The position numbers and the translations under genes were made by a program. Positions 3,200-59,099 of a stretch of DNA of 64,000 nt are shown one piece after another. The stretch is from Mesodorylaimus sp. YZB2_4 (taxonomy: Eukaryota > Nematoda > Enoplea > Dorylaimida > Dorylaimidae): positions 62,001-126,000 of the forward strand of contig JASANH010001557.1 of the NCBI GenBank assembly GCA_030248295.1, given 5' to 3'. How positions within the stretch are numbered: the first letter of the stretch is position 1; each line of letters starts with the position of its first letter. A model generated the notes under the pieces. That model saw only the letters and a program-made list of their open reading frames with translations. It was not told where the DNA came from and ran no database searches.

Positions 3200-6100
3200 A
3201 TGAATTCGTCTGGTTCTTGTGGAGAAAACGTGTTGTCGCTTGCACGGCACGGTCCGCATCCAACACCGACCAGGAGCCTGTCTGCGGCTGGGAGACCTAT
3301 CGATTGCACCTTAGTCACCCACCGACACGTGGGGATTAGCAGACGGTTCACTTACATCGGGGACGTCAACGACAGCCGCGCCACAGAAGGCAAGCAAACT
3401 GCACTGAAAACATTGCTGGCCAGGGCCAAATCCGCCTTCGACACCGGCGGCGCCATGTCTGGTTGGTACAGTTTATCCGGATATTTACACCTGAAGTTCT
3501 TGGGCGGAGGTGAGTGGGGAGGGATTGCCCCCACTTTCACCATCGCCCAAGTTGCCCCCCTTCCGTTCAGGTTTCACAGCACTACTCCGTTCCAAGCGTC
3601 GTTACTATTTCGTGCTGGATGAAATCAATTGCCAACTAGCTTATTATAAAGATTATGAAGATTTCTTCGCCAGAAAAAAATATCCTACTGGAAATATTGA
3701 ACTGAAAAATAGTGCAGTCACGTTGAATGAAACCAAGCCTCGCGTATTCACCTTGCAGTAAGTCCCCACATGCTCGATTCGGGGGATGCTGTAGTCGTGT
3801 TTTCATTGGCAGAACAATTCTTGAGAGCAACTGTTACTGTAAAATGCCCTTTACACCTTGTTCCCTCTTTCTAAACGACCTTGTCCAAGTTCGAATCCCA
3901 CTGCCTCCAAATCTTTTTGATTTCTGAAACACATTTTCTCTTACAGCACCGTGGGTGGTCGCCAATATGAGTTGGAGGCAGAAAGCGAGGAGTCAGCCTT
4001 GGTTTGGTTGGAGCGCTTACAGGTAGTCCTTCAATTTATTCTCCTATTTTTCATGTTCATGTTTTAGATCAGAAGCACGGGTACTTGCAAGCGCGATGTC
4101 TTCACTGATGTCGAAACAACAGAACTGAGTTTTGACTCCAAGGAGAACACTGAAAATGCCCCTTCTTCTTTGCCTGTAAGTTTTGCTATCAAAAATTTCT
4201 TCTCTGGCCTACCCTGTTTCGTCGTGGTCTTTCGGTTAGCCGTGCCTACTAATTAGAGTCATGGCTGATTTTTCCTGCTGGGCGATAAACTAACGTAAGT
4301 AGATAAAAACATAAGAATTCTATCTAGCCAACCGTGATAAAACCCAAAATTTTTGATGTCAAAACAGAAAATAACATACTCAAACGACACGACTAACAGA
4401 AAAACAAGTTTCATAAATTTATGCACTTTTAAATGTTGTGGTCTGGCCTTTCAATTTGTCGTGGCAGACAGCCCAGTCATACGCTTCTGGCATTTTCCTA
4501 GTCCGTGCAAACTTGCTTGTTACTTTCTGAATAGACTTAGTTAACAAAGAATAATGGTCTGCTAGTGCATGACACTCCACCAGAGCTTACACCCACGCCA
4601 CCGATCCTGGCAGACCGTAGCTTTAAATGCAAATACAGGTGCTGGCTGCTGGCTGCTGGCTGCTCGAGCTGTATGTTGCATATGAATACGATTGGCTCGC
4701 GTCCCACTGACGACATCGCATCCACCAGGCTTCCAGGCTAGCTCGTGTAGGGAGCAGCTCCAAATGCTTTCCTACTGCCCTGCAATCAGTTGCTGGTGTC
4801 GCATAATGGCTGCCTTCAGGTGCCTGTTGTAATCTATATATGCTCGTATTGGCGATTGTGTAGTCAAAAATACTTGGTATGAGTGGGGCTTGAACCGTGG
4901 GCCTTTTGGGGGGCTGTCTTGCCAACTGCGCCCTTGACAGAGGCAGATAATAGCTTCAGCGGTCATGCAGTTTCTTCTTTTATGGCCTCTCCAGCCTACT
5001 ATGGCAGGAGGCAACTGCCAAGTCCACCAGCGTTCATGCAACAGGTGGAAGCTGCCCCTCGCAGACTGGGGGCTTTGGTATCCATAATACTTTACATCGG
5101 CTAGCCGTAGGAGGGCACACCTACCTAATATTTGAGATAGGTTGGCGCACCCACGGGCTCGTCCAGGAATGATTCCCTTTCGAAATATGCTTCGACTGAG
5201 GGTATCGGCAACAGGCACCAATCATTTCAGTCCGAATCACAACTAGCGGACGCCCTGGAAACGGCCTTGCTCAGTTGCAAGCAATCCATCGCATCCAATC
5301 AACGCAAGACCTCGACCCCGTCTCATCCCATACCCACCGCCAGAAAACAATGCTCGTTCTACTTTGGGTCCCGTTCTGGCTCGATCGGCACCACTAGTTC
5401 GAGCACATCGACCGGCCAAGCTGACCATCGATCCCCACCCGGATCACCACTCGAAGAACACCCCGATGAGAACAAACATATCTGGACCAGTCCCAGCGCT
5501 AGTTCACTGCATTGTTGGATAAACCAGTGGCTGTGCAAACAAGAATTTGATATGAGTTCGTAAGTTGGATTTTGGCGGGAGTTCAAATCTTTTGAAGTCA
5601 TTTTTTAGCTGACAGAAACGACATAACTTGATTTTTTGCCTCTTCCAGGAAAGACTCCATGGTATCGAATCCTGGGCCTGGTGATGGTCGTAGCACGATG
5701 ACATCGGCAACAATCAGTTCAATGCCGTCTGAAAAAACAAAAGACAGCGATTACAGCCGATTAGAAGAGAATTGCTATATTTTGTAACAATTCTGACCAA
5801 TTTTTAAGTAGATGCCCAACACTCAAATTGACAAATTATTTTAGGGAAATGAAAAAAGAATTGGAACATTATAAAAGACTCGATCAAAACCAACGTCGAC
5901 AAATTGATGATTTGACATTACAAATGAAGAAAATGACAGAAAAACTGCACCAACTTGAATTGTAAGTCGGTTAAATAAGTGCACTAGACCAATCGTATTT
6001 CACAAAGTCATAATTAGGTCAATTCAAGATAGGCTGACTGAGTAAACAGTCTAGGCTAGGCTGACTGACAATGAGTAATCAGACTAAGACAAGTAGCCTA

Positions 6101-9100
6101 AACGATATTTTACTCGCACTTGACGATGTGCTAGGCATTGAGTTGGTATAACTCAGAGATGGGGTTCGATTCCCGCTCAGGATTAATGTTTTGCGCACCA
6201 CTTTGGCCGCTCTTTTTTATTCTTATGTACGCCTTTTTTGTGAAAACAGCTTAAAAATGAAATATCATGCCTGCGCTTTGACTAGTGTGATTGTCCTAAC
6301 AGCTGGCGACATGTGCTGGCTGATCCACAAAGGAAGGCTCAATAATTCTCCAACTCTCCAATTTCCTATTTTGGCCGTCCTCCTTACAAAGTTTCCTGAA
6401 TCTAATTTGTCTGAATATCATATTTTTTAGACATAATCAAGACAAGCTTGATTCAAAAACGAATTATTTTCAATTACAAAATAAGTTTCTCAATGCCGAA
6501 GTTGTGCGTTTGGCATCGATTCTGAAAAATGAAACGGAAGAACATACTCAATTGAAAATGTGAGTTCGTTTTTGCATCGTGCTTTGAATTTTAAACATTC
6601 CGGTTTAAAATAAAATTTCCCGCGCATTCAGCCAGATTTTCCTCTTCTACGTTTCAATTTCCCGCAAAATGGTTAGCTGGACACTATCTGAAAAAGCGTT
6701 TTCCTTCGAATGCCAAGAAGTTACATTTTTTAGGAAAATGTTGGATATGGAAAGAAGCCTTGATGGTACGAAAATCGACTACACTTTCCTCTTGCAGTCC
6801 AGTTTGCGCATTTATGCGGGCGAAAAGCGCAACGACTGCGCCGAGTTAAAACTATTCGCTTTTCATACTGTAAGTCTGGCCACCAAAAGCAGCATCTTTG
6901 CATTATTTTGTATTTTTAGCATCAAGAACAAATTTTGAGATATTTGAACGAGGCACGCAAACTGGATCCATCTTTGCCAACATGGGAAAGGTATGCCATT
7001 GTGCGCTGGAAGACCACAAAGCACCTGAAACCATATTTTACACATTTTGTGCGCTGGAGGACCAAAACGCTCCTGAAACTATATTTTACACATTTTGTGC
7101 GCTGGAGGACCTAAAAGCTCCTGAAACCATACTTTACTGGGTCTGTGACTGGTAGACCATAATGGGAACACTGTTTTAATTTGTCCATACCATCACCGAG
7201 CAGTGATCATACAAGGCTGGGAAACCGGGAAAATGGGAATTTTGAAGGCCAAGTCGAGGAAAATTAAAAATTGCATTTTGAGGTTTCAAATTGTGAAAAT
7301 TCAGGGGATAAATTTGAGTTTTGTCTGGAAAAACCTGGAAAAATCAGGAGAAATTAGAGTCTATCAGTCGAAATCAGGGAAAACTAAGAGGCTTCATTCT
7401 CCCAAATGACCTATCAGGTAACATAATTTCCCGCTCCTTGTTTGAACCCTGCTGGAGTTTGAAATAGTAGGCGTATCACTCACTGGCAAAAGCACTCTCA
7501 CACTTTGTGAAGATACAGAAATCACTTTACCACCCACTCATCTCAAATCATTCGTTCCTCTAAAAATGTAAGCCCGAGTGGGACTCGAACCCTCTCTTCC
7601 GTCATTCCAGCCCCATGCCGAACAGAACACAGACTGTGGCACTTTACTTCAGCTTACTCCCCAACGGCACAGGTCACGTGGACTCATACGGGTTTAGAAA
7701 TACATTCAACGATGTCGGCCTGGCCTTGCACTTTGCTGCCAGCCAGTTGCTGATATTTTATCGAAGTTCTAATGATCAGGAAAAAAGACATCGTTGGAAA
7801 GAGTATTTGCAAAAGACCAAGAACGGGTTGGCGAATACAGTAGGCTGCAATTCTTGCTTGTTCTCTTTGCCATTTCCTTGGTATGCTAATTGTAGAAAGA
7901 GGCCAGAAATCTGGCCAGAGCGGGTATTCCAGCCAGATATCGAAGTGCCATCTGGCGTTGTCTGGTCCACCAAAAAGTGGCCGATCTAAAATTGAAATTT
8001 GGTAAATATTATTTCCGAGGTTTGTCCAATTGGCAAGCCAGTGCCAGCGATATTCAAGTGGGTCGCCTTAATTTTGTGTTCGGCTTCTGGCGGGAAATCA
8101 ATTTTTTTTCAGAGCGCTTGCAGCCACCAGAAACAGATAACATTGGATTTGATGCGGACTATGCCCAATAATGTACATTTCAGTGCGCCATCTCAGAAAG
8201 GGGTAAGTGTCAGCCACTGAATCGAATCGTCAACACTTCTTGTCCTTTTTCAGATCGTCCAGCTGCAAGCCGTGCTTCAAGCCATTTGCGCCCACAATCC
8301 ACACATTGGATATTGCCAAGGCATGAACTTCGTCACTGCCATTTGCCTTCTATTTCTCAATCCGGAAGACAGTTTTTGGTAACTTTGTCGTCTTGTCGTC
8401 TGTTTTCTCATAGAATCTCTTTCAATACGTCGGAGTGTGTTATGCTGGAGAAGCGACCAGCGGAAAAAACCCAGGGGCGGCTAACCAAGTCTTCTGACCT
8501 TGTCAATGGTTGAAACATCATCCTGACGGGTCCTCTTTGCTGCCGACTCCATCCATGTTTTAGCACTGGCCCAGGTCGGAAAACTCGGCCGATTGCTGCA
8601 ACCTACGGCTAGCGGGCCCGCCGGTGGAAGGAAAAGAATAGGTCATTTCACAGATTTCGGACAATGTTAAATTTGAATTTCCCGCTGTGAGCCGCATATG
8701 ACAGATGAAAATTCCTTCCCTCAAAGCTTGTGCGCGTCTCGCTCGAATGCTTTCAAACAGAATTACAACAACTTTTGGCCACTATAGGAAAAGAAAACCA
8801 ATCAGAAAGCTACAAATCAGGGAAACCGTCAGCAGAAATTCTGTCAATGCAAATGGCGCACAGGCTTTAAAGTGAGGGAATTTTTATCTATGTCAGAATG
8901 ACCCACGTGGCTTGAACCGGAAAATTTAAATTTTGCAGTGTATGAATCCTGTAAAATAGTATATAATCGTTCCCCCCCCTGCCTGGGTGGGTTGACGTTT
9001 CAGCCGCACATATAGTCGCGAGACTTACTGTTCCTGGCTCCAGTCGAAGTGTTTGTTCGGTCGCACTCTGTTCCACGCCCGCTGGCTGTGGTTGTATTGC

Positions 9101-12100
9101 ATTGTTCTCATAGTCTCTCCCTTCATACCAGACGTATTGCACTCTTTTCTAGCCTCCAGTTTTACTCACCCCGTTAAATCCCTCTCCCGCTGCAGGTTCT
9201 TGGTTGCCCTGACCGAGCGTTACTTTGTTCCCAATTATTTCGATCACTCCTTGACGGGTGCTCAAGCCGATCAAGAAGTACTCAAAGACATATTGGAGGA
9301 GAAGTTGCCAGATTTGGCCCAGCATTTTATGAAAAGAGATATCGAACTGGCAACTGTCACCTTGAATTGGTTTCTGGCATTATTCTACGACTCGCTGCCC
9401 TTCGAGGTAAGCTGTGATGACCCTTCACCCTCACCTTCGAGTGCCATCGGTCATGGTACCAGACTTTCCCGAATGGTTTCGTCCAAGTGGGGTATCTTCA
9501 TGCTTCGGACCCAAGCCTGGATAATTATGGGTATCCCCAACCATTTGTGTGCATCAGGCCAGTCGGAGAATAGTGCTCACCCCACCTTTTGTTGATGAAT
9601 TTAGCACAAGGATTTCGCAGAAGCTGCCTGTCTCACGTTTAGAAGTAGCTAGATACAGTGTCCTCGCATAAAAATTCAAAATCGGAAAACTCCCGCCTTT
9701 TTACAATGCTATGAATATGCACCAATTGACCAACAATGCGATCGTTCCATATACGAGTATGCCCATTGAAGTTTGCGTTTTAGACCTTACTTCGCATTTG
9801 GGATTGTTTTCTTCTGGAAGGTCCGAAAGTGCTCTTTCGATTTGTTCTGGCTCTGCTCTACATGCATCGAAGCACGCTGTTGGAATGCTCGGATACAATG
9901 TCCATCCTGAAAGCGTTGAAACTGTGCGCAAAGCACACTTACGACGCCGATGCCCTTGTGAAAGTAAGAGTTGCTTTGCCCATCTTCATCCTAAGGTGAA
10001 CCTATGCTAAAGTCAGCCAAAATTCTGCTAGCTTACAAAACAATTTGTGTATAGGCTATATAAATTCTTACTATTTTGGGCAGTTCGAAATATGTCATCT
10101 TTCAGGCGAGAAATCTGTGGGAACATAGTTACAGCCACAGTAAAAAAAATGAGTGCTTTTTCAGATAGCTTTCGACACAATGCGTCCATTCCCCCGCCGA
10201 CAAGAACTGATAAGACGTCAAACGCGGTACATGGAGATTTTGAAGATACGACTGCAGAAAAAAGATGAATTGAAAGCAGTGGCCTTGGCTAACAATACGT
10301 TCGAGGATGTGCTATATCAGATCGAGCTAGTGCTCAGTCTGCGCGGTAAATATGGACCCTGCTATTGTGCCCCTCCTCTCCCGGACATATAATCCTGTGT
10401 GACGCGGCCGAGGTGCTCTTATGGGACTGGCAACACTAAAAAATCACTCTAGACGGGTAATTATATTTAACTGCCCCCGTCAAATGCAGAGCCAGTTCAA
10501 TATCACACAACCACATCAGTGGCACACAGGGGCAAGTAGGTAGCATGACGAGGCGGGAACTCAAACTTACCCTTTTGGCACGCACCTTCGCGGGAGTGTC
10601 TTGTTTTGGGGGTAATAACAGCTGCACCACCACGGTCCATGGATCCATAGGAAACCCACAGTGGATCCATCGTGGCTATTGACCTGGACCCACATGGAGC
10701 CACGCACTCCCACATGGATTCCATGGAAACGTGGACTCGCTGCAATGCCGCGGGGAAATACAGTACCTGGAACCACGCGGAGTTCTGACTTCCACCTGGT
10801 TTCCACACAGATCCACCGTGGACTGGCATGGAAGTAGAACATGGGAGTCCCCACCACTGTGCTGCATTGTGCATGCAGAAATACTGAAAGCCTGATTCTT
10901 TCCTAATCTGGAACATGGCAGGGCTTCCATTCTGCCTCGGAATCTGCTGATCTCGCAATCAGTGACACAAGCTGATATGAAATGTCCCGTGCTCGTACAT
11001 TCAACCACCTACAAAATCTGTTCCCCAGTCTGCTGATCAGCAGCATAAGAAGTGACTGATCAAGTGTTTCTAGCTCATATCCTATATTTTACATTGTTTA
11101 GAGTCGGAACTCCTGGTGGCCTACTGTTGTCATAGTGGCATAAGGAAGCTAGCCATCGTCTCATGCCAGGCAGGGAAGATCACAGAGCTCGAGCTACAAG
11201 TATGTTTTGTGGCATTTATCTGCATGGGCACTCTTCGTGTTGTAACCAGCAATCCTGGCTGTGGAAGATCAATACTTTTCCCCAGGGGGACGCCAACCAC
11301 TCTGGTTGATGTTTCAGCGGCAGGTCGCGAGACTTGCTTGCTGCAGTCAAAATTTTTTGCCCTAGAAAATTCAGCCTCTCACATTTCCCGCCCCTGTGTG
11401 TGCTAGTTATCGTGTTGTTGCATGAATTTTAGTTCGATTCAACCATCGTGTCTGCCACAATGACGAGCACGGGAAAAGATATTTTCTTATCGCTGCTTTC
11501 TGGTGATATCATATCGATATCACTGGATTTACAAACCAAAGCTTGGTAAAAGGCTGTTCATAAGTTTATAGCAAAAGTGCACCTAACTTGACCCACTATA
11601 GCTCTGTGCACTGGCAAAAACGTTTGCCCGATGTTGTCCTGGAATTATTGTACTACGAAGACGATCGACTATTTGCCGCGATGGCGAATGGAACGTTGGC
11701 CGTGTTCGAGGTAGGCTGGGTGATGTGCTCTTTGTTAGACAAATCGAATAGAGGGATCGTTCTGCACAGAATGCGTCGGAACGCTTGGAACCTGGGGCCC
11801 TGCAAGTGTACTATATTCCCATTGGTGCAGCTCCCCTATCGTGCTTGTGCCTGGTGGAAGAAGAGACGCAGATTTGGTGCGGGATGGGTGGCAGGGTTGC
11901 CGTACTCAATGCTAAGTAAGATTTTTTGAATTTCCCGCATTCTTCATTTTAAAATTTCAAACTTCCCGCCGAACACACGTTCTAATTTTTAGAACTTTGG
12001 ATTGCTTAGAGAGATTAACAATCGCCACAAGTTCGGTCGGTTGCATTTCTGCTTACTTTGATCGACTGCTAACGTTACAATTGACAAAGTTTGGTGTTTG

Positions 12101-14894
12101 GATGTCGGCCTTCAATTCATCAATCATTCAATTATGGGACCCCAACACGCTGACTTGCAAATTAGTTTTCGATACGTCGATTGACCAGAAGTCATCTTAT
12201 GTAAGTGCCAGGGGTCTGGCCTGTCATTCGCACTGAATAACCTGCGGGGTTACTGTAGGTGGGTGTACCTAAGCATCACCTTGTTAGCAGAACTTTCTAC
12301 TCAGCAGCAGCAGCAGAGGAATCCCATTCGAAAAGTCACGCATGAGACCAGTCCACTCGATAGCTGACCTTTGTAACCCCCCGCCTGGTAGGCCATGGCG
12401 AGTGCGAGAGAGTAATCGATACTCTCCCCTGGCTGGGAAACGTCAACCCCTCGGGTTGATGTTTCAGCCCATAGGTATGGTCGCAAGACTTGCCTGCTCG
12501 AGTCGGAGTTTTAGTCCCGCCGACTTCGGTCGGCCGCCTCCCTCCTACGCCTGCCAGGCTTGGTTACACCTTTAATTCCTTGCTTTGCAGGCCCAAACCG
12601 ACTCGCGGCTGACCTGCATGCTGGCCTTCGACACGTGCGTGTGGGTGGGCACTGCCGATGGCTACGTCCTTGTTTACGACGTGGTGCCGCGCGATTCCTC
12701 GCCCATCAAGCTGTTGGATAGACGCATGACCAAACTGGCCATTGATAGTATCCCATCATTTCTTACACATTCCTCGCCTTCTTTGATCAAAATCGACAAA
12801 TCGTCCAGTCCGCAACGCTCGCCTGTGAGTCGAACTCCGAGCAGTAAGCAAGAATTGAGTCAACGTGATTCCGGGTACAGTGGGACGAACAGCAGTCACT
12901 ACGCCAGCACCGAAGCACTGCAACAGGCGGGCGACAGCAAAGTGACCAATGGCCGCCCGGGCGACTCTCGGCGTCGCTCAGTCTACAAAAATGGACCGCG
13001 GTGGAATGAGCGAAAGAAATGGCAGAGTTGTCACGACCTGTCGCGTCAAGCAGCTGAATCCACGCTCGATTACGACCAAACTTTGAAATGTCAGCCGCAA
13101 AGGCAACGCTCCTCGCCCGCCACCAGCTCGAGGAAACATTCTATTCAAGTCAAGAAGAAGCAGTCTCTGCAAACTCGGCCCAGTTTCTCCAGTTTGGCCA
13201 CATCGAACTCCGGTACAGGCCTAGAATATGACGATCTCTTCGTCCCGTATCCTGACTATGATTCCAACACGTCCCTGGTGGGCGGCCTGCTCAGCTCGTC
13301 CAGATCAAAGTCGCAGTCGGACTGGAGTCTCAGCGCGGCCACCGCCTTCCTCACATCCTCGACTTCGACTGGCCATCACTCACCCGATCGAACGCCCGCA
13401 GCCGATGGCGTGTTCACTTTCGAGTCCATGCCCTGGTCACCGAGATCCAATGTCGATGGGCGGATGAAAAAGTCCAGGCGTCAATTGCTGAAACGACCGA
13501 CCAGACAAGAGCTGAGAAGAAAGGACTTGGATGTGGACGAGTGCATGGCAGGCGCGCAGCAGCAGTCTCGCAGGAACAGGGCATCGCCGATCATGGCCAT
13601 CAGACAATCCTTGACCTTCCCGCAGGTGGTAACCGAGGCGGCCACCGACACTGACAACGAGTCCGTCAAATCCAATGTGGACGTATCAGAAACGGCCAGT
13701 GTGCTGTCCATGTCGAGCACGGGTGCCATCGAACCACCCTATCCCTATCGATTACAGTGCATTATGAGACTGAAGATTTCCGACAAACTGATTCGATGTT
13801 TGACACTGACCAAGTAAGACCCTGTTCTCACCTCCGCTCAGGGCTCCCACACCAGGTGATCATAGCACATATCCAATTTAGGGTGGTCTGATCGTGGGTC
13901 CAGTCATGCATGCATGTCAGCAAGGTTGTGGGTAAAAGACTGTGAGCTTGACAAACAGTACACACATGCAACAAAACGGTAAAATATGGTTTCGGGTTGG
14001 GCTCCCTTCTGCGGTAGATAGTACTGTGCTATGACTGAAATCTCTTTTGGATCAAACGTAAATCGAGCATCACTGCGAGGCTTAAATCAAAGCATGAGCA
14101 GTAAAATTGGGTGTTGGGACATGCTATGCACACTGCTGCACCACTGGGTGCGCTCTTTTACACGGGCTGGGTCGACTCCCGCCCGGGTAAACAATGATTG
14201 TCAAATATGTGTTCCTTAGCGCTCGAGTGCGCCTTATGGGCTTGGCTATGGATAAAGTGTGACATGACAGGACATAGCTGAAGAGCGGCCAGCCGCGTAA
14301 CGCCTCAGCGGTAAAGAATTTAGAGGACCCTGCTCAGCTGACCGCGTGTGTTTTAGGGCATCAGATGGTCAACAATGCGTGATCAGTTCTGCTGGCGGAC
14401 TGGACGAGAGCGAGGCCATCCTTATTTGGACAAAGGATGTTAATGATGAGCACGGGGTAAGAGCTCGTTGTTGGAATGCTTAGGGATCGTGGGTCGAGTG
14501 GACGGTACCAATTTTAACCCATTGGTGGTCCCCACTCACTTGACAACCAGTCAGTGCCTGGCAGTCTTGCGAGCGGGCTGTCGATATAACAAGGGAGACT
14601 GGGAGCGCCTGACCCTTACTCATCCGGGCACAGGTTCGGATTCAACTTGACCTAATCACTATGCTCAATGTCTCCGCCATGTCAAACAGTAGCTTATCTT
14701 TGTCAGAAACTGTGGATTCCCAAGCCCGTTGCTCAAACTGACAGGCGATCCAGGCCCAGACAATTGGAGCCGATGACTAAAGCCCAACTAATGAAACGCA
14801 GATCAACGTCGCCGTGGTTCAGAGCATCCTGACCTGCTTGGACACACTATTGACTGCTTGTAATGAGGATGGGAGCCTTATTAAACCGCGCTGA
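3200..14894 (+). CDS. TBC1D2-like: TBC1D2-like Rab GTPase-activating protein with C-terminal beta-propeller
   Basis: 25 coding exons: 3200-3509, 3571-3757, 3947-4022, 4068-4175, 5231-5559, 5649-5783, 5845-5961, 6431-6559, 6734-6869, 6920-6990, 7611-7839, 7896-8057, 8113-8202, 8254-8378, 9196-9406, 9784-9963, 10165-10345, 11102-11199, 11433-11545, 11602-11710, 11770-11915, 11993-12200, 12591-13813, 14357-14456, 14802-14894. They sum to 1621 codons plus stop in one frame. Domains: PH (about residues 85-205), Ser-rich linker, coiled coil (about 350-520), TBC (about 612-925) with both catalytic fingers (ITLDLMRTMPNN supplies Arg, IGYCQGMNF supplies Gln), then WD40-like blades (LFAAMANGTLAVFE, QIWCGMGGRVAVLN, CVWVGTADGYVLVYD). 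A Ser-rich insertion of over 300 residues, likely disordered, interrupts the propeller within the large exon. PH-coiled coil-TBC is the TBC1D2/Armus plan, whose known members act on Rab7 at endosomes. The propeller resembles those of ARHGEF10 and LRRK proteins. ATG 3200 is the first ATG in this open frame; an upstream exon is possible. Confidence 0.85.
4176..5230. other. long intron of the TBC gene
   Basis: No reading frame or RNA gene is recognisable. It contains a short CTGCTGG repeat near 4640 and a tRNA-B-box-like fragment near 4880-4900. Confidence 0.5.
7001..7145. repeat. three 48-bp tandem repeats just after an intron donor
   Basis: Units begin at 7001, 7049 and 7097, each starting GTGCGCTGGA and running through a CTGAAAC..ATATTTTACACA stretch. 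The exon donor of the TBC gene is at 6991, so the array is intronic. Because 48 is divisible by three, the exon frame stays open through about two units before a stop in the third. Confidence 0.75.
7203..7400. repeat. dispersed AT-rich repeat with GGAAAA(T)CAGGG motifs
   Basis: An intronic stretch rich in CTGGAAAAATCAGG and GGGAAAAC-type motifs. Reverse-oriented relatives occur near 38.69-38.89, 39.73-39.99 and 60.83-60.98 kb, where TTTTCCAG and CCCTGATTTT-type motifs predominate. No coding content. Confidence 0.4.
8955..9050 (+). repeat. core repeat family (GTTGATGTTTCAGCC), copy 1
   Basis: Lies in the long intron 8379-9195. It has the shared block GGTTGACGTTTCAGCCGC followed by ATATAGTCGCGAGACTT. 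Other copies are at 11262-11345, 12400-12505, 16520-16610 and, reversed, 16855-16960. Confidence 0.55.
10600..10860. repeat. palindrome-rich intronic block (CCATGGATCC, ATCCACnGTGG)
   Basis: Within the 10346-11101 intron there are many short self-complementary words: TCCATGGATCCATAGG, CACAGTGGATCCATCGTGG, GATTCCATGGAAACG, ATCCACCGTGGA. They could form several hairpins. No protein or RNA gene is recognised. It may be the remains of a foldback element. Confidence 0.4.
11262..11345 (+). repeat. core repeat family, copy 2
   Basis: Intronic. Contains GGTTGATGTTTCAGCGGCAGG followed by TCGCGAGACTTGCTTG, matching the other four copies. Confidence 0.55.
12400..12505 (+). repeat. core repeat family, copy 3
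   Basis: Intronic, just upstream of the large propeller exon. Contains CCTGGCTGGGAAACGTCAAC, then GGGTTGATGTTTCAGCCC, then GGTCGCAAGACTTGCCTG. The GTCAACCCC..GGGTTGAT pair can form a small hairpin. Confidence 0.6.
14120..14280 (+). repeat. tRNA-like SINE (family 2), plus orientation
   Basis: In the intron 13814-14356. A B-box-like GGGTCGACTCCCGCC (14169-14183) is followed about 40 nt later by the family tail GTGTTCCTTAGCGCTCGA..GCTTGGCTATGGATAAAGT..GACATGACA. The reverse copy is at 2385-2525. Confidence 0.55.
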
Positions 14895-14930
14895 GTATGA
14901 TGATTTGTCACAATGTTGAATAACCTGAAG

Positions 14931-14936
14931 AATAAA
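14931..14936 (+). terminator. poly(A) signal AATAAA of the TBC gene
   Basis: AATAAA 37 nt after the TGA stop at 14892-14894, in the right orientation and spacing for the 3' end of the TBC-domain transcript. Confidence 0.65.
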
Positions 14937-14939
14937 TGC

Positions 14940-15690
14940 TGTCGGAAGCTGTAGTAGTCTTACAGCACTGACGATGAGACTGACAGTGCAGCACTGACAG
15001 TACAGCACCTAGTCAGCAACCAAGCAACCTTACATCTACCGTGGGTCTCGCAACGGCCGTACAGCAACTTTACAAGACTTTTTCTATACATCTTGCCAAG
15101 AAACATAAAACTACACACTTCTGGCAGAGAAACAGCTTGTGCGGTGATCAAGCAAGCGGCCTATCACCTGTATCCACGACTTAGGGAAGACCGAATAGGG
15201 AATCAAGGTGCACAAAGTCAGCAGTATTTCTAATCAGCTTGCCCAGTTACAGTCAGACTGACGCTTTCAAGCTCGAGTGTTGTGACTACCTGTAAGCCAG
15301 AGACTCTGATCATAGCTTGCTGGGACGGGTGATCGGATGAAAATGGCAACCTCTTTCAATAAGCGCAAAATCCACACGCTGCAGTTATTTATCACAACCC
15401 ACTGCTAGAAAGGCGTTTCAGAGATGGAGCGAGTGGTACTATTGAAAGCGAGACCGACATTTCGCTGCGGCGGATTGAAAGGGCGAAGAAATGGCAAGTA
15501 AAGGTGCTAAAATGACTAATAACTTGTGGGTGGCATTGACACCGGATGACAATGTTAGCCAGACATTAGCAGTAAATGAGTCAAAGAATGGTGAATGCCG
15601 ATAGAAGATCAGGAACACAATAAAATCCATCTCGCTTCCGTCTCTCTCCATACGTTCCCCCGCACCAACGCGGAACTGGTAGGAATTGGA
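14940..15690. other. intergenic spacer
   Basis: Lies between the 3' end of the TBC gene and the start of the IgGFc-binding-like gene. It must contain the promoter of the latter, but no TATA box or factor-site cluster stands out. Confidence 0.4.
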
Positions 15691-15693
15691 AAT

Positions 15694-18600
15694 ATGGACC
15701 AAGTCTGGCGTCTTTTCCCGCAACTAGCGTTCTTGATCCTTTTGATCCAATTTCCACTTGCAGGTGCGAGGGCTATGTTAGCTGTGCTTGCCCATCAGCT
15801 GATGTTGTTTCTCACAGGTGGTGTCAGCAATGCGGGAAAGACTTTCGTTCAAACATTCAACTTCAATCACCCGACTGTGGAAGCCCAGGTCACGCATGCT
15901 TTCATTCTGTCGACGGATGCAGCCTCGTGCACAATCACGATCACCGCGGACCATCCGCCATTGACCACGTACACAGTGCAATTGAACAATTCGCAGTCTG
16001 TGGTCTATACGATCAAAATAGCATCGACCAGGGGCATAAAACTCGAAGCGCCATGCGACTTCATCGTGTATGGCCTGAACTTTGCCCCTCAGAGCGCAGA
16101 TGGATGGTTGGCGTTCCCCGTCGAGTCGTTGGGTAATGAATACGTCATTTTGGGAGTGCAACCGTGGCTGGCCGAACCAACTCAATTGACCATCGTGGCC
16201 GCCAATGACAACACAGTGTGCACATCCTCTTTCCCCGACGGTACGACGCGTGTCTCCAACCTTAATTCTTTGGGTGTCGACTACATGACTAAAAGCATAG
16301 ACTTGACTGGAACAACAGTCTCATGTAATGACAAGGTAAGTCTGGCCCTTGCAACTTTCGATTCTTAAAATATCCTTTTCCTGCTCAATGAAAAAGACAA
16401 AGCACTGTATGGGCCCTAGCTGTAAATGGAGTGTGCAAAGCCCGGTCGCCCTGATCGCATGTCCATTTCTCAAATCGAAGTCATTCCAAAGCATCCCATG
16501 TTTAGCTGGCCATGACGAATGGGAGGCGATTATTGATCTCTCCTTGTTGGGTGACGTCAGCCCTTTGCGGTGATGTTTTGGCCGCAAATAGAATCCGGCC
16601 TAACTCTAGTCAGAGCTTTTCTCTCACCGACCTCGATTGGTCGCATTATCCCCACGCACGTTGATGACGATTGCACTTCTCCTCAGTACCCGACATTGGT
16701 TTAGCCCGTGAAAGGCGAAGCTAGCTCCACATTCACTATGTTGCAGTGCAGCACGTAACTACATGAAGAAGAACACTTCTTCATCATTGCGACCCTCAGG
16801 TAGGTCAGGCATGTGAGAGGATGGTACTGACCAAGGTCGGTGGGTCGTAACCTCCGCCTTGAACAATGCAAGTCTTTTGACTATACCTGCGGCTGAAACA
16901 TTAACCCAAGGTCTTCCAGCCAGCGGAGATCGATCATCTGCTCCCCACCCACCACGACTGACGAGGGTCACATCATCCTAAAAATAATCCTCATGGCTAG
17001 CCGGCTTCTCTTGCTTAACATCCATTGATCAGATCACACGTTTAGGTCACTGTGCTCACTGGCCAAAGGTGCTCTGTGGTGCCAGCGAACTGCAAAGCCT
17101 GCGATCACACAGTCGAGCAAGTTCCACCAAAGTCCACGCTTGGGCGCAAATTCGCCCTAGTCCCTTTGAATCACAATTGCAAAGCCCCACCAACATGCTG
17201 CTCAGACCAAACTTTTTGCGCCAAATGCGTGGAAATATATCGCATCATGGCTGTGGAAGACAATAGTCGCATCGTCCTGAATGGAACAGAGTCCAACGAG
17301 GCCTTTACCTTGAACTCTCGCGAATCCCGCTATATTCTTCTTTCTCAAACAGAAACTGCGTACCTGACTAGCACCAAGCCAGCTATCGTCAGCCAAATGT
17401 TCGCCAGTCAAGAATACGAAGGAGCTAATCAAGATCCAGCTTTCACTATTATTCCTCATATTGAAAGTTACGACAGCCAATACCGCATAGCCACCTGCTT
17501 CCCCCAATTCCAGACCCACTTCGCCAACTTGGTCGTGCCAGCCAACACGAGCCCCGATATGCGCCTTAATGGAGCGCCTTTCCTTACAGCCAGCCAAGCC
17601 ATCCCAATTCCTGGAACTAACTTGGAAGCTTTCAAATACCAGTTCGACTGCTCATCGTCAGGCGGCCACCCGTTGTCCATCACTATCCAACATTTGCAAG
17701 GGGCTGGTTTCGGTTTGCTAATGTATGGGTTCAGCGCCTGGGTGTCGTATGGATATGTGGGTGGAATGAGGCTAGATGAGGCCGTGAACATCGAATGCAA
17801 CCAGCCACAACTCACCCTAGCAGTCCCATCCATTTCGTCTCAAGTTTGCAATCTGGCAGAGGCTGAACCCATTTTCGACCCTCCCACAGCTTGGAGCGAT
17901 GATCAGTGCTGCCTAGGCACCAGCAGTCTGACCACCGTTGACAATGAGATCGAGTCTACATCGTGCACCAAATCTGTCGCACGAGCGTGGACACTGGAAG
18001 ATGGATGTGGTCAGTCGATCAGCGTCAGCCAGCTCAGTGTCCTCACCAGGGCGCCTGACAGCTATCAAGCGCCGCCAGAGCGAGTCGAGTATAACGGCAG
18101 TTGTTCGAGTGTGAACGCTGACATCACCGGCCGCCCAATCTTGCAGACTGATTGCGGCCAGACAACATCCATCTCTTACGCAGACGCCATCGACACCACC
18201 CATGTCAACAGGACGTGGATCATTACGCAAGAATGCTCTGGCGACCTGGTATTCGAGCAAGTCATCACATGTGGTAAGTGCTCAGGGGCGTAAATGGAGG
18301 GAGGGAAAGCACAGGCGACGCTGCAGGCTACCAGTAAATCAAGGGCTGCTGCACGCGTGTCGCTACATTCCTACCCAGAAATGTTTCTGGAATAGGCAGC
18401 AGAATGTACAGTATGAATATACAATGCTGAAGAAGGTGTTTCAGAGACTTCAGGAGACTGATCTGATCTTCAGGGAGGTACTTGCCGTGTTGTAATATCC
18501 ATCGCGACCCTTCTTCAAGCGACTAGGCCTTCAACTCCCACTAAGCCCAATTTTCTGTCTGCAGGAATCGAGTCCATGCAGCCTGTAAGGATGAAACGCC

Positions 18601-23041: not shown

Positions 23042-25206
23042 TCAGAAAGCTGGCAGTGTACGTAAAACACCAAAGATAGCCAATATGGTACCTCCAGTAA
23101 CGATCAAAATAATCACTCCGATATTCAATGCTGGCAATCTGGCGATGGCTGACCCAGAAATGGCCGCTGTCTCAGCCCGCATCAGCGGACAGAGTGCGAA
23201 TTGTTTCTTTTCTTCGTCTTTCCATCTTCTCAATTCAGCACACACACTGTCATTGTTATCATACCTTACTGATAAGACCACCGTGTCTCCTTCCACTTGA
23301 CCATCATCAAAAACATTTTTCAGTCGCGCTTGCCATTGCGCAACTGAGCACTGAGTTTTGTACTGATATCGACTCACTTGATCACTGATCAATCGATCAT
23401 TTTTTGCCTGGTTGGTCACCAGACCAGTAAATGACTGAGCTTGGTCTTGATACGTTTCCAGTGCCATGGTGCACGATTTCATCCATTTTTCCACATGAAT
23501 ATCCAAAAAATCAATATCTTCTTTTTCTAAAACATACTCGATCAAATGACAAATCGATTGCAGGTCAGCCCCGATCAATGACGGCCATTCGCGCAATGAT
23601 TGCGCCCAATCTCGCCACAATAAATCGAAAGAGATTGGAAAAGTGTTCTCGATCAGAAGACGCTCCTTGATATTCTCCCTTCCTCCCGCCACTTCAACAT
23701 GCCCGTGAATAAGTGACGAGCGGGTGGCATTCTCGCACAATTCAATATCATGCCCAGTCAAATTCGGTATCATTCTACCAGAATTCGGTGAACCTAAAAA
23801 TCGAAGAAGGGATAAATCCCACAAATCGTCCTCGAACACCAGTTTTTAAAGTCCCGCCGCAACACTTTTAATTTGCCCAAAAACCATGTTTTGAAAAGAG
23901 ATAGTTAAAACTTTCATTGCAGGAATTTTTTTTATAAATGTGCTGGAGAAGCTAAAAGTACACAACAACCTACATTTGAAAAATCTCCCTGAAGTTGACT
24001 CCGTTTCTTGCAAATTTTAGTGTGTTCCACTCCAAAAACTTTGGATTACTGAGTAAATCATGCGGCATAATTACTTTGCTATTCAATCAATTATAGCCAT
24101 CTGTTTTTTTCTTGCAATCGTACAAAGGCTGGTAAGACTTTAAAAAGTTTATAGCAAATTTTAAAGGAGACTGCTAATCCAACATTGTCAAATTTTGAAT
24201 TCCCATTTTCCCGCCTTTTTCTTTGATTTCTTATTCTACAGTACCAGCAACATTGCTTACCATTTCCAATCAAATATTCTAAACACTTTTTCAACTCCTT
24301 CATGCTTTCGAATGATTTTGCCCAGGATTGATCGCAATCGATTTTTCCATACAAGGCGAACACTCCCCCTAATTGTCCTCCTTCAATATAATGAGTCCCA
24401 AACTCTTCGAAAAGCTCGAACCAACTTCGGTGAACTTCGTCTTCATTATCGTAAAGACGAAATCGAAATTTCTTATTGAAAGCTGCAACAAAACGATTGT
24501 TCAGTATCGATTTCTGGTGATCAATCGACAGCGTATATTTTGATGTTTCGAATTCGATTTCGACACGAAACCACGGCTTGTCCTCTTCAATGACGTGACT
24601 AAGCAAGTCGGCCAGATCGTTGTGATCGTAATAGTGGTCAATAAATGCCATATCCAAGCTCGATCGATTGGTCACTTTATCGATTAGTGATCGATAATAA
24701 TCAAAACTCGATTCGAAAGTGTGAATTCGAATTTGAGCATTCGATTTCTTGATATTTTTTTGATCCGACCTCTTTTTATCCGCCTGGCTCTTCCCTTTTT
24801 CTACTGTCCAATTGGAAATAATGGATGGTAATCGATATCTGATCTCGCCTCTGATCGACTGCTCGATGACTAATCGACAATCCTCATCTTGATCAGAATT
24901 CGAGGCTTTATATTCCAATCGTGATCTAAAGAGGGAACTTATCGATCGACCGAATCGATTAGTCAGGGGGGCATGGAATCCTTTTTCGATCGATATTGGC
25001 CAGAATATGGTTTGGCATGGGCGTCGAGTAGTGCAGCAGATGGGTGGTCTCTTCGACACTGTGCTAGTGCCACTGCTGGTCGTAAGGGTCGTGGTGTTGG
25101 TGATAACGCTGATAGGATCAGTACTGGTCTCATTCTTGTCATAATCACCACTGACGAGCAGAATTATGGAAAATAGCGATCCTAGAACAGGCCACACGCC
25201 GTGCAT
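23042..25206 (-). CDS. MACPF (perforin-like) membrane-anchored protein
   Basis: Two coding blocks are visible on the minus strand. The first runs from ATG 25206 to a donor after 24261. It has a signal peptide (MHGVWPVLGSLFSIILLVSG), a Thr/Ser-rich segment, a basic stretch, and a MACPF domain carrying the hallmark EEFGTHYIEGGQLGG near residue 280. The second runs from about 23830 to the stop at 23042. It has an alpha-helical Trp-rich part typical of the end of MACPF domains, several Cys, and a C-terminal hydrophobic helix (IGVIILIVTGGTILAIFG). The joint between blocks is unresolved: the first ends in phase 1 and no clean matching acceptor was found, so a small exon may be missing. MACPF proteins oligomerise into pores in immunity or development. 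The C-terminal anchor recalls perforin-2/MPEG1-type membrane proteins, but overall identity to any subfamily was not established. Confidence 0.75.
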
Positions 25207-25349
25207 GTCTTCGAGGCAGTGTATCGACTGGTTGACGTTATCCAACAGCCAACAGGCCACCTTCGAGTTCTTTGCACACTGACGTGAGCCTCGTCTAAAA
25301 GCTTCTTTCCGTTTAAAGCTGGTGTTTTTTATGTTCACCCGTTTCTCCA

Positions 25350-26045
25350 CTCGAGCTGGCGGCCTTCAAAGCTCAGTCTCGAGTCGAGATGTTTTTGCCG
25401 ACCACCGACGTCGAACGACGCTCAATTTTCGTCATTCACCCGTCCGTCGTCCGGGGCGATCCAGGCGAATGACTGGCCCATCCCCTCGCCCAGACCATAA
25501 AAGTACATGACCCCCGGCCACGATCGATAGCCAGCCACCTCGTAGAACAGATTATGCACTCGCTCGGGCAGCCTGGCCAACACTGTCCGGACTTGTAGAC
25601 ACGGCCGAGGCCCTTATTTAGTCAGATAATCACTGAATATTTTAATAAGTGGGCACAAAAGCGCCCGCTCGAGCACCTATTCCGTGAACTCATTAGAGCA
25701 GAGTTAATTAAACTTACTCCTCCCATCCGAGGATTAATTGCCTGGCATTTATGAGTAACATAATGCAAAGTACTTTTTCAAATTTTCCGCTGAGTTAATT
25801 ACTAGTTATCAACAAGTGAAATCGATATTTTCTTTAAACATGTTTGATTGAGTCGCATCAGAGTAGAGCCTTTCCTCTTTGCGCATATTGATTTTTTGAG
25901 TCTTTTTGAATTCGCGCGCATGTAAGCTGCCACTTATAACAGCACGCGCGGTAGCCAAGTGCAAAAGCCAATAATAACTTTTTTGTGATCGAGAAACGAT
26001 AAGACAATTTTTCTTCTCAAAAAATTGCGAGTTAGGTACTGGACT
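25350..26045. other. upstream region of the MACPF gene
   Basis: No gene recognised. It lies 5' of the MACPF start and should contain its promoter, but no clear TATA box or site cluster was seen. Confidence 0.35.
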
Positions 26046-39700: not shown

Positions 39701-41631
39701 ACGGCGGGGAAAATGATTTGGTTACCCCAAACAAAACCGAAAGTTTTCTGAATTCCTTAGTTTGCACCTCAAAATACAACCTTTTACATTTTTTCCTGAT
39801 TTTGCCTGAAAGATTCCAATTTCCCTGGTTTTTCCGTGTTTTCCAGATAAATTTGAAAATTATCCTATTTTCTTCAACAATTTAAAAACATCAAAATCCA
39901 TAATGTAATTTTTCATAGTTTTCCACGATTGTGGCTTCCTATTTTCTCTGCTTTTCGCAGGTTTTTCAGACATTTCCAGGCAGAGACTCAGCAAGTTTTG
40001 GCTCGTCCATCGGGGGGAGGGACCCATTTTTCAAGCCTGGGGCTTAAACCCCTCAGTTCAGTTTCAGATGCTGAATTGATGCCTCGTTAATCCCCAATAA
40101 AGCCCCCAAAATCAGTTTAAGTCACGATGCGTCCATTAGAAACCACTTTCTTTTAAAAATGCTAAATCCTTACTCAATCCGAATAAAATAAAAGCAAAAA
40201 TCGAAGAGACGGCCAACGGCGCCACATACCACATTATTCCATGCCAACTCGTCTTACTCACAAAACAAACCGCCAAAATCGGATCTCCATCAATCTGGAA
40301 TCGAAAAAATTTCTACTAAGAGAAACAAGCTTTTTAACAAATGTCAAATTGACCTGCATGGAAGCCAGACCACCCGTCAGCATCATAATCACCAACGAGA
40401 CCACACTGACCAATTGATAAGGCGAAAATGAACAATGCTGAGCAGCGCATCGCCATCGCAGATGCAAAAACGAAAACACGACCACCCACGACGACGCCGC
40501 CACCGTACTAGCCAATAAAGCCGTGTATTGTAAAGTGCACCAAATACCAGCCCTGAAAAAAAGTTAAAAACGGAATTATATTTTTTGAAAACACTAAAAA
40601 TATAATTTTACTGCAAAGATTCTCGCCTGGTCGGTTCTTTTAATCGAATACTTCCATCCGGACGACAAATACTATCCGAATCCGATATTATTTGAATAAA
40701 CCAAGTTAAAATTAATGTTAAATGGCAAGCGAGAAAATAAAAAAGTGGCCAAAAATATGCACGACGATTTTTCGTATCTTGATTCTCCGAATATAATAAA
40801 CCCTGAAAATTTTTCAATTTAAAGATTTTTCAAAAATCCAAAAAAAGCTTTTTTTAAACTTACCATTGTAATTAAAGTAAAAATAAAAATACAAAATAAA
40901 CCAATTAATAATAATTGTTGAATCGGTTGATGTCGATCGATTCGAAGACTTGTACAATTTAATCCGCAATGATCAACAATCCAACCAGTTTTATAATCGG
41001 TTAATATTAATGGATTTAAACATTTCAAATCCGATGTCCAAACCGTATTTTTCGATATTTTACATTGATTTGTAAAAATTGAATTCAATTCAACGCTTTC
41101 ATTCGTGAAAAAACAATCGCCTAACGAGTTCGGCCATAATTGTTCTTCGATTAAAAATGAACATTTCGAACGAGTTTCTGAACAAAGTGACCTCGATATT
41201 CGTTGAACACGTCCATTCTTGCAGGGCGGATAAAATATTGAACAAAGTAATTCGCGTAATAAACGCCAACATTCGGGAAGACCCGAATAAATTGATAAAC
41301 GTTCGCTTAATTCTTGCGGTGTTAAACGCCAATTTAATGTTTCTAAATGTCGAGACGATGAAAAAGCGAATTGTATGGAGGCACCGAAACAAGTCGTTCC
41401 ATTTTCCACTAATCGACAACCATCGATCGACGAATCTTCGACGTAACATTCCGGTTTCATGGTCCAATCTTTTTTGAAAAATGGATTTTCAACAGTTTGC
41501 GATGGTTTGACAGATTTTTGACGAAAATTAACTCGACTATTTCTCAGTTCGTGTTGTTCGAGTAAAGTATTGGAGGAGTGGATAAATGGGATAAAAGAAA
41601 TTGAAAGAAAAATAAGTTGAAAATAAGCCAT
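33732..41631 (-). CDS. smo: Smoothened, Hedgehog-pathway 7TM receptor
   Basis: Nine exons on the minus strand: 41631-40864, 40802-40612, 40552-40354, 40294-40174, 36904-36812, 36753-36645, 36343-36009, 34797-34581, 34377-33732. They give 892 aa with all phases consistent. The start is the ATG before a signal peptide (MAYFQLIFLSISFIPFIHS). A Cys-rich Frizzled-type domain follows (CFGASIQF, SGLPECWRLL, LLCSIFYPPC), then the linker, seven membrane segments and a cytoplasmic tail. Diagnostic for Smoothened rather than Frizzled are ICRPDGSIRLKEPT in the first extracellular loop region, IDGDPILAVCFV and GFLLICLLVLQ. The tail carries a PKA-type RRTS after the last helix, RQKMRSSSS, a Trp/Pro/Tyr-rich stretch and a strongly acidic run before the end. 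Known role: relays Hedgehog signal when Patched is inhibited, usually at cilia. Intron 4 (36905-40173) holds transposon sequence. Confidence 0.93.
34798..36008. other. Smoothened intron 7
   Basis: A 1.2-kb intron with no recognisable gene or element. Confidence 0.5.
37050..37130 (+). repeat. SINE family 2 tail fragment
   Basis: TGTTCCTTAGGCCTCGAATG..GCTTGGCTAGGGTTAAAGT..GACATGACATG matches the tail of the copy at 14.12-14.28 kb. It lies in the large Smoothened intron, antisense to the gene. Confidence 0.5.
37524..38023. mobile_element. 500-bp pogo/Tigger-like MITE
   Basis: Inverted ends CAGTCGAGTCC and GGACTCGACTG are flanked by TA on each side (37522-37523 and 38024-38025). The interior contains several variants of CGGACTGTG and AAGCGGAC, a style typical of pogo-class elements. 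No transposase frame. It sits in Smoothened intron 4. Confidence 0.7.
38565..40130. repeat. two direct copies of a ~1-kb degenerate repeat
   Basis: The segment starting near 38570 (CCCCTGGTCAAGG, TTTCTTGTATCCATTGC, TTCACACATGGCGCAGG) recurs near 39600 (CCCCTGGCCACCTGG, TTTTTGTATCCATAGCG, TCACACACGGCGGGG). Each is followed by TTTTCCAG-rich sequence. A third weak relative lies near 60.66-60.98 kb. It is an unidentified transposon in Smoothened intron 4. Confidence 0.5.
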
Positions 41632-41699
41632 TTTGCAGTAAATGGTGCGCAAGGCAAGGCGAGGTTGAAAAGCACCAAAAATTGCAAGAAAGGCACAAA

Positions 41700-43990
41700 G
41701 ATAAATAAGCTAAATCTAAAATTTATATTTTTACGGCATCGTAAACAATTTTTTTTTACCAAGCGGCACGAAATATATGGATAAATAATTGCAGAGATTG
41801 AGGATACTGTACACTGCGCGCTGCACACTTGACGCAGGCAAAGGCGCGTTCTGACACAAAAGGGCGGGATATCCAAATTAGACTCGGTTTTCGAATTGAG
41901 AAAGCGAATCCAAAAATTTTGGATCGTGGATTCCTCTAAGTGACGACAAGAAGGATGAAATTTCTGGAGTGCGAATAAGCGCTATGCGAAGTCGTAATTT
42001 CGAGCATGAAAAGAAGATTGTTTGCGCATGCGAAAACTTGCGGGCATGCAACTATGCCACACACATGTCTCATCTCATGTCATATCATACTTTATCTAAA
42101 GCGAAGAATGAATAGCGAACTCGATGGTTAACGAAAGTTGACCCAACCTTAACTTCCAATAAGCCCTTGCGACCGCCTTTACTTGACGCATCGCATCGCT
42201 TGTTGCGACGGTCGCACTGCTATAGTATAGCTATATCATCTTCACGATGCAGCAAATAAGCTTATCCGCGATGCGACCGTTGTGATATAGTATACTTGCT
42301 TGCGGCGAATAATGGTTGACTGCGTCAATTAGCCCTCTAAAGTGACGCATCGCACCGAAGTGCAGTATACTTTGGGCTTAAAGCATAGAATAGCATAAGA
42401 GGAAAGCAGATTAATTGCTTATTTATATTTGGATTCAATCAACTACAAAAATTTTGAGCAGGTCTGCTGGAGGTCTGGCTCCTGTCGTTATGCATTGATC
42501 AAAAAATTGATGGAGTTGCTAAATGGTAAACGGCCCACGAATCCAGTTTCTGTTAGAAAAGTGCGCCAGAGAATGCAGGACATGGAGAAAAGTGAAGAAA
42601 CAGTCCAACAATAATGGCGTCAAGAGACACACTGGTAGTGGTCGAAATGAAACACTTCCTACAAGGAGGTCATTGCGTCGAAAATGGGTAACACTCTAGC
42701 GTCTAGAATTCCAGGAAGTATGCTTGAAGCAGGTGGAACCTTTAGCGATGGCATGTTCAGAGGATGAGAATGAAGGTGACTACACAGGTGGTTTTGGCTT
42801 ACACTTGCACCACGAAGCACTCAGGCTCCACCCACTCTGCTGCATTCTGCTGGGTGACACTGACTGCTGGACTGTGCTCTGATGCTGAATGCAGGCCAAG
42901 CTGCTGGCTGATCTATATGTTCGACCTGAGCGGTTTTTGCGGGTAGGACATCTGGTGACGAAACTGATGCAGTCGTGAAGAATGATAACTTGGACTGGTT
43001 TGAGGGGGCTGAGTCTAGAATCGACTGATCATCGACAGCCGAGTCTGACGCTCAGCTCGACATTAGCCCTTGTAAATCAGTTCCAAGATCCTGACGCTTA
43101 CGGCGTATTTAGCCAAATTGCACTATCAAGTGACCATGAGCCGTTCAGCAATTGGCCACTGACTTATGGTCTGAAGGACGCATCGAGCTGATTTATGCCA
43201 CCAACCCAAACTGGAGCAACATCGAAAATTCCGGAAAATGCGGGCCGATCTGCTACTCGCACAACCAACATCACGCACAATAGTTGCAAACTAATGTGGT
43301 CGAGCAAGTAAAAGTCAATGGTTTTCGATCGTCAGTGCGGGTATGGAAATAGCAGCGAATCGGTATGTGGAGCGTGAACATATAAAGACAGAGTGGCAAG
43401 ACACTACATAGCATTTTTTGGCAGAATCCATGTTTTAAATCAGCACTCCCTCTCAAAAATATAGTATTTAGCATCAATAATCCCACCTGAGTCTGCTGAT
43501 CTCCAACGATATGTTTATCAGTCGAAAGCCAATATAGTGAGCGAGCGCGCTGAGAAGGAGTAAAGACCAAGGCGGAATGGCTTATTCAGATATACTGTAG
43601 GCACATAAGTATTAGCCTTCCGCCTAATGCATCTGCTGCATAGACTGCTAGCCAGACAGGAAGTGGCTTGGGCACAGGGTTTTTGATTTTAGCCATTAAG
43701 GAATACTGGAAAGCAAAGTTAGGGAACGACTTGATTGATTTTAAGGCTACCTTGAAGTAAACCAGGACTAAGAATGTTGATGGGCTGACTCGTAGTTTTC
43801 ACTACTGTATGGCTTGCTAAATAAGCCGCTATACACAAGAAATTTTGTTTTTAAATTCTCTGAGGTTGAAGCGAAGTGTAAATACTGCATAAATCACTAT
43901 GCATATGATAACATTGAGGATGTTCACCCCTTTCGTCTAATGTCCGAGTGCAGTAGCATTTTGGAGAAACGTAAAGAATTTAAGATCTGG
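41700..43990. other. region upstream of Smoothened
   Basis: No gene recognised. It contains a SINE-2 tail fragment (42.06-42.12 kb) and, at 42170-42370, repeated GCGATGCGACCG and TATAGTATA words. The Smoothened promoter should be near the left end, but no site cluster is evident. Confidence 0.4.
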
Positions 43991-44007
43991 CCATTACGTT
44001 GGGGGCG

Positions 44008-44430: not shown

Positions 44431-44499
44431 TCGTTTCTTCTGAAATTCTATTCGTGGGAAGGATGGCAAGGCGTAATAGACTGCTCACGAGAGTAAGAC

Positions 44500-59090: not shown

Positions 59091-59099
59091 GTTTTGGCG

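Follow-up and report, generated by a model that had tools for sequence, protein, structure and literature searches.

LRRK1 is reported to phosphorylate TBC1D2 and to relieve a contact between its PH and TBC domains (PMC6176412, in excerpt), and an effect on Rab7 has been reported for the control of TBC1D2 by LRRK1 (PMC5348726, in excerpt). In human TBC1D2 (Armus) the dual-finger pair consists of R676 and Q713, which lie 37 residues apart, and C. elegans TBC-2 acts in vitro on both Rab5 and Rab7 (PMC6176412, in excerpt). A related arrangement is known from Dictyostelium, where TbcrA, an RCC1-TBC protein with Rab5 as its target, is brought in by the TBC1D2-like PH protein PripA, to which it binds through the RCC1 part (PMC8980073, in excerpt). 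A survey that sorts 262 human WD40 proteins into 21 architecture classes contains, in its main text as excerpted, a word beginning with TBC once and the term PH domain never (PMC5172248).

The locus described here lies in a 64-kb stretch of DNA, referred to below as the window, and its features are collected in Table 1. The exon chain over the whole coding span is confirmed as genuine, with matches to PH, TBC and propeller domains that are far above chance. An earlier note on this DNA had read a single in-frame chain leading from a PH domain through a TBC domain into a propeller, and this is also what we obtain when the 25 exons are rebuilt independently from the raw sequence: all 24 introns (45 to 965 nt) are GT-AG, there is a single frame with a single stop, and the Pfam models for PH, RabGAP-TBC, Beta-prop_LRRK2 and WD40_2 are all matched. 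The three blade strings quoted in that note are likewise all found in the rebuilt protein, while its single poly(A) signal gives way to two hexamers near the gene end. Splice-site scoring identifies two weak acceptors, those of exon 5 (-0.6) and exon 25 (-1.2), and if exon 24 is left unspliced the frame runs into a stop at 14481-14483. Scans of the window with Rfam (gathering threshold) and for tRNAs returned no matches.

Table 1. Positions of the predicted gene and its parts in the window
Feature	Position	Strand	Details
Whole coding span	3200..14894	+	25 exons, 1651 aa; alternative end 14483
PH domain, residues 93-192, exons 1-4	3476..4070	+	Pfam PF00169, 4e-9
Probable coiled coil, ~residues 400-539, exons 6-9	5746..6869	+	charged heptad-like stretch, by eye
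RabGAP-TBC domain, residues 653-868, exons 12-16	7935..9882	+	Pfam PF00566, 1.2e-54, profile 2-216 of 216
Codon of catalytic arginine R708	8155..8157	+	DLMRT motif
Codon of catalytic glutamine Q745	8317..8319	+	GYCQGMN motif
Exon 17, TBC1D2-like tail	10165..10345	+	hydrophobic toward its end
Intron 17, 756 nt, questioned join	10346..11101	+	donor and acceptor rank
Propeller blades, residues 956-1223, exons 18-23	11102..12719	+	PF23748, 6.9e-16; PF19056, 1.2e-13; PDB LRRK2-type, 4.7e-8
Serine-rich insert inside propeller, ~residues 1224-1567, exon 23	12720..13751	+	limits by eye
Last propeller blade strands (probable), ~residues 1568-1621, exons 23-24	13752..14456	+	longer Pfam match without insert
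Exon 25, uncertain final exon and stop	14802..14894	+	poor acceptor score, -1.2
Poly(A) hexamers	14880..14936	+	ATTAAA at 14880, AATAAA at 14931

The first half of the predicted protein has a PH domain, a coiled coil (by eye) and a TBC domain in the order of TBC1D2 and TBC1D2B. The best PDB match of the PH domain is ORP11 (2.3e-5) and the second is the human TBC1D2 PH domain (2dhk, 4.9e-4). The coiled-coil region (residues 396-545) is composed to 42% of E, K, R, D and Q, and its search against the PDB gave nothing below E 0.26. The TBC domain is complete and carries both the arginine (IxxDxxR) and the glutamine (YxQ) finger by which a RabGAP is recognized, as the earlier note had claimed, and the spacing of 37 residues between R708 and Q745 is the same as that of R676 and Q713 in human Armus. 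Because this pair is kept with the Armus spacing, the domain is predicted to be, and should be, an active GAP. The best PDB match of the TBC region is 4p17, a chain named only as a RabGAP/TBC protein (8.8e-42), followed by USP6NL, and the TBC1D2 catalytic domain is absent among the 18 PDB matches of this region.

The animal's own genome (145 Mb in 1067 contigs) contains further TBC genes. With the PH and TBC domains as the query there were 10 matches at E 1e-5, seven of which are the fused locus itself and three of which lie on contigs C22, C30 and C33; close copies of either the PH-TBC half or the propeller half were found only at the fused locus. The C22 gene encodes a TBC domain followed by an SH3 domain, and it looks like SGSM3. 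The C30 gene carries PH pieces that stay below the Pfam cut-off (14.5 bits versus 25.1), a coiled coil as judged by eye, and a TBC domain whose motif reads GYCQGLNRL. The TBC domain of the fused gene is 46% identical to that of C30 over 183 residues and 39% identical to that of C22 over 199. Comparison with human TBC1D2B, TBC1D9 and EVI5 provides a lead rather than a test, as these reference sequences are provisional: the C30 pieces share 57% with TBC1D2B over 168 residues, the fused gene 42% over 292, and the SGSM3-like C22 gene 40% over 206, while the fused gene shares 34% with TBC1D9 and 26% with EVI5. Since C22 is almost as near to the provisional TBC1D2B (40% versus 42%), the TBC1D2 label of the fused gene is a loose one. 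By this provisional yardstick the C30 gene looks nearer to TBC1D2/2B than the fused gene does, and the fused gene would be a second, diverged TBC1D2-like member in this animal. The TBC1D2-type assignment of the earlier note stands in that, of the few families compared, TBC1D2 comes out nearest by these provisional sequences; the C30 gene, though, looks to be the closer relative. The C30 gene also agrees with the statement that TBC1D2 ends soon after its TBC domain, as the search of the own genome turned up no propeller within this gene or next to it; to the extent that TBC1D2 orthologues were checked for the same propeller, that is, inside this one genome, C30 shows none. Provided that exon 17 is spliced to exon 18, the frame of the fused gene, unlike TBC1D2 and TBC1D2B, runs 783 residues beyond the TBC domain.

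The combination of PH, TBC and propeller domains looks unusual, but it may be an ordinary architecture in some invertebrate phyla that is merely missing from the well-known model animals, a possibility that we take seriously without favoring it, and one that is compatible with the explanation we prefer. The strong divergence of the fused TBC domain from that of C30 is as would be expected for an old gene, and the GYCQ-G stretch, which is unsplit by an intron in the fused gene, is apparently split in the C30, C22 and C33 genes. Against this, we found no description of such an architecture in the literature searched, the coverage of which was incomplete, with most subscription papers outside it.

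The second half of the protein contains a propeller of the LRRK/ARHGEF10 type, and here the earlier note is borne out by two Pfam models, both above their curated cut-offs: Beta-prop_LRRK2 at residues 1012-1223 (6.9e-16, 58.6 bits versus a cut-off of 26.9) and WD40_2 at residues 1000-1274 (1.2e-13, 51.0 bits versus 22.5). The common WD40 repeat model is not listed at E 1, nor at E 10 once the insert is taken out, and because it gives no match we do not regard this as an ordinary WD40 propeller. Removal of the insert raises the LRRK2 model to 62.6 bits and extends the match from profile position 311 to 326 of 359. The insert itself (residues 1231-1560) is 19% serine, mostly hydrophilic, and probably disordered, and residues ~1568-1621 taken alone matched no propeller model. 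At E 1 or below the PDB yields 22 sequences, comprising 19 of LRRK2, two serine/threonine kinase entries aligned at the same place, and ENP2 at 0.97; the LRRK2-type chains range from 4.7e-8 to 1.6e-6. In a further PDB search ENP2, again next after the LRRK2-type chains, had an E of 0.019. Pfam searches of the fused protein matched no ROC, COR, kinase, LRR, ankyrin, RhoGEF or RH1 domain.

Whether the two halves belong together depends on the join between exons 17 and 18, and we consider it likely, from frame, phase, splice sites and equal GC3, that exons 1-25 encode a single fused protein. When scored with a splice matrix derived from the remaining 23 introns, the donor of intron 17 ranks 113 among 3474 GT and its acceptor 19 among 3706 AG on the plus strand of the window. 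The end of exon 17 and the start of exon 18 (11102-11199) are both in phase 1, an agreement that on its own would occur one time in three by chance. GC3 is 0.531 in the TBC exons and 0.527 in the propeller exons; for the whole halves it is 0.507 and 0.604, a gap that is due to the exon with the insert. The frame of exon 18 is closed upstream without an in-frame ATG, the first of which is in exon 19. In the LRRK2 propeller structure 6dlo the first aligned residue comes after 124 others, whereas exons 18 onward provide 93, and for this reason the first blade may begin in exon 17, near residue 925 if loop lengths are equal. Mean hydropathy changes from -1.38 in the charged residues 901-930 to +0.52 in residues 931-960, five of which come from exon 18.

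It is rather unlikely, in our view, that the locus instead consists of two adjacent genes, namely a diverged TBC1D2-like gene ending with exon 17 or shortly after it and a propeller gene that either has a start exon within intron 17 or is trans-spliced. Read through, exon 17 would add 15 residues, GKYGPCYCAPPLPDI, before a stop at 10390-10392, and intron 17 holds two candidate start-exon donors (three ATG-donor pairs) with a score of at least 5 and the right phase, compared with an average of 0.62 donors in tiles of 756 nt. About 700 nt separate the end of the fused gene from the point where its downstream neighbor's first open frame begins, so an intron of 756 nt could also fit a gene boundary, and the domains described for TBC1D2 proteins are PH, coiled coil and TBC (PMC6176412, in excerpt). 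A stand-alone second gene would, however, encode a propeller and little more, the frame of exon 18 is without its own start, and the join has good splice sites, all of which argue for one gene.

Several other observations on the join were set aside. The absence of a poly(A) hexamer from intron 17 was dropped as evidence for one gene, given that 0.73 AATAAA/ATTAAA would be expected there. The first blade in exon 18 seemed to the eye to resemble those of the JIP-like and ARHGEF10-like propellers described below, but shuffled sequences do as well, 1996 and 1572 of 2000, respectively, reaching the score, which counts against the single gene. Comparison of the last blade is also weak, its score being reached by 92 of 2000 shuffles for the ARHGEF10-like and 1055 of 2000 for the JIP-like propeller. 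The end of TBC1D2 likeness at about residue 934, inside exon 17, had at first spoken for the fusion but was likewise rejected as a boundary, as the reference sequence used stopped nine residues later.

Relatives of the propeller were also sought in the own genome. All six matches at E 1 with the fused propeller as the query are the fused locus, and the WD40_2 model found two more propellers, on contigs C48 and C6. The COR-A model found a single locus, on C8. These whole-genome Pfam propeller scans missed the fused locus, where the blades are split by introns, and their silence on other loci is weak evidence. The C48 gene, with an RH1-like start just below the cut-off (22.8 bits versus 24), is presumably JIP3/4-like, and the C6 gene, with a RhoGEF piece at 32.8 bits (cut-off 27.6), presumably ARHGEF10-like. 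The C8 gene (C8:1229200-1248900), which we take to be LRRK1-like, has ANK_LRRK2 at 30.6 bits (cut-off 27.5), LRR and COR-A above their cut-offs and a kinase match that falls short of its own (18.3 bits versus 23.1), while the pieces taken for its ROC domain and propeller were matched by no such model. COR-A matches only C8 at E 0.1, and the LRRK1-like gene is perhaps the sole LRRK of this genome.

All three genes were read as unspliced pieces and the blade fragments for comparison were picked by eye. The fused propeller is 26% identical to the JIP-like one (47 bits) and 22% to the ARHGEF10-like one (42 bits), while these two share 37% with each other (64 bits); to the LRRK1-like gene it aligns in short pieces only, at 22.3 bits or less. 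Judged from these fragments, the propeller of the fused gene forms a branch of its own within the LRRK/ARHGEF10/JIP group, and with Pfam favoring the LRRK2 model and the in-genome comparison favoring JIP, we leave it without assignment to a single family. That the propeller came from an LRRK gene, with the docking domain of a regulator being built into its target GAP, would be compatible with our preferred explanation and would fit the top Pfam model (the LRRK2 propeller), the restriction of convincing PDB matches to the LRRK2 type and the reported phosphorylation of TBC1D2 by LRRK1 with relief of the PH-TBC contact (PMC6176412, in excerpt), but it is improbable given that a separate LRRK1-like gene is kept on C8 and that the blade fragments resemble the JIP-like (26%) and ARHGEF10-like (22%) propellers and hardly the LRRK1-like one.

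The surrounding DNA contains other features. A 34-nt element occurs in two copies (85%), at 11285-11318 in intron 18 and 12435-12468 in intron 22, with similar text seen by eye in intron 14, and is probably a dispersed repeat. The next gene downstream (15595-18290, plus strand) encodes a protein with an IgGFc-binding domain (PF17517), which is matched at 3.2e-6 in one open frame and at 4e-30 in another. It is followed on the minus strand by a MACPF/perforin domain (24094-25365, 1.2e-8) and by a Frizzled-type cysteine-rich domain (40822-41709, 1.9e-8) with a subsequent hydrophobic stretch by eye, perhaps a relative of Smoothened or Frizzled. Open frames at 43796-44549 and 48966-49556 consist of near-perfect tandem repeats (by eye), and a reverse-transcriptase fragment at 58665-59249 on the plus strand (19.8 bits, below the cut-off of 29.6) is probably part of a retroelement. 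Elsewhere in the genome, which by its gene content seems to be an animal's, there are 14 COX1 matches on 10 contigs, C73 among them; several have stops other than TGA, and these look like nuclear copies of mitochondrial DNA. The C73 COX1 frame requires TGA to be read as tryptophan and has AGA/AGG at serine, ATA at methionine and AAA at lysine sites of other animals, a pattern that agrees with the invertebrate mitochondrial code and speaks against a flatworm, echinoderm, tunicate, sponge or cnidarian.

We lean, modestly, toward one gene and one protein, a PH-coiled coil-TBC Rab GAP with an LRRK/ARHGEF10/JIP-type propeller, that works as follows. A diverged second TBC1D2-like gene would have acquired the propeller. 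The PH domain would place the protein on phosphoinositide-bearing endosomal membrane, where the TBC domain would drive GTP hydrolysis on a Rab, most likely of the Rab7 or Rab5 class, through its arginine and glutamine dual fingers. The propeller, a platform without catalytic activity, would either bind a partner or fold onto the PH-TBC half, with the GAP being released upon partner binding or phosphorylation of the long serine-rich insert, a likely site for this modification. A single transcript, GAP activity, the target Rab and the role of the propeller are all inferred from the DNA. The RCC1 domain is itself a propeller, and since in both pairs, LRRK1/TBC1D2 and TbcrA/PripA, the partner with the propeller acts on a TBC1D2-like module or together with it, the window gene would in the simplest reading unite this arrangement in a single chain; by analogy the fusion may echo the known LRRK1-TBC1D2 pair, a link to which the sequence lends little support. 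More specifically, and doubtfully, the built-in LRRK-type propeller might be a switch that opens and closes the PH-TBC unit on late endosomes, with the LRRK1 and TBC1D2 partners combined in one polypeptide.

How the predicted protein relates to known systems can be summarized by its parts. Like TBC1D2 (Armus), TBC1D2B and C. elegans TBC-2, it has an N-terminal PH domain, a coiled coil and a TBC domain whose R and Q fingers are spaced by 37 residues, but the domains described for those proteins are the PH, the coiled coil and the TBC, and the excerpted text mentions no propeller (PMC6176412), whereas the fused gene has one. TBC1D31 (WDR67) also combines a WD40 propeller and a Rab-GAP in one protein, but its propeller is N-terminal, it has a long C-terminal helix, is centriolar and has no PH domain named in the excerpt (PMC12506977), whereas the propeller of the fused gene is C-terminal to the TBC domain. 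In Dictyostelium, TbcrA and PripA likewise bring TBC and RCC1 together with a TBC1D2-like PH protein, in Rab5-to-Rab7 conversion, but as two proteins and with an RCC1 domain that is not of the LRRK type and is N-terminal to the TBC domain (PMC8980073, in excerpt), compared with one predicted chain here. LRRK1 and LRRK2 have a C-terminal propeller of the type matched in the fused protein, which is without their ROC, COR, kinase, LRR and ankyrin domains, and, like the fused protein with its probably disordered insert, LRRK1 has a disordered loop in its WD40 domain, one that bears a phosphorylation site (PMC10412621, in excerpt). ARHGEF10 and JIP3/JIP4 share the WD40_2 propeller with the fused protein, which lacks RhoGEF and RH1, and its propeller is less like the JIP-like or ARHGEF10-like one than those two are like each other (37%). 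If it is one chain, this architecture, for which we found no description, would offer a handle on the connection between LRRK-type propellers and the inactivation of Rabs. When two domains occur fused in one lineage, their separate counterparts elsewhere often interact, and the fusion thus suggests that TBC1D2 GAPs may dock to the propeller of LRRK, ARHGEF10 or JIP proteins.
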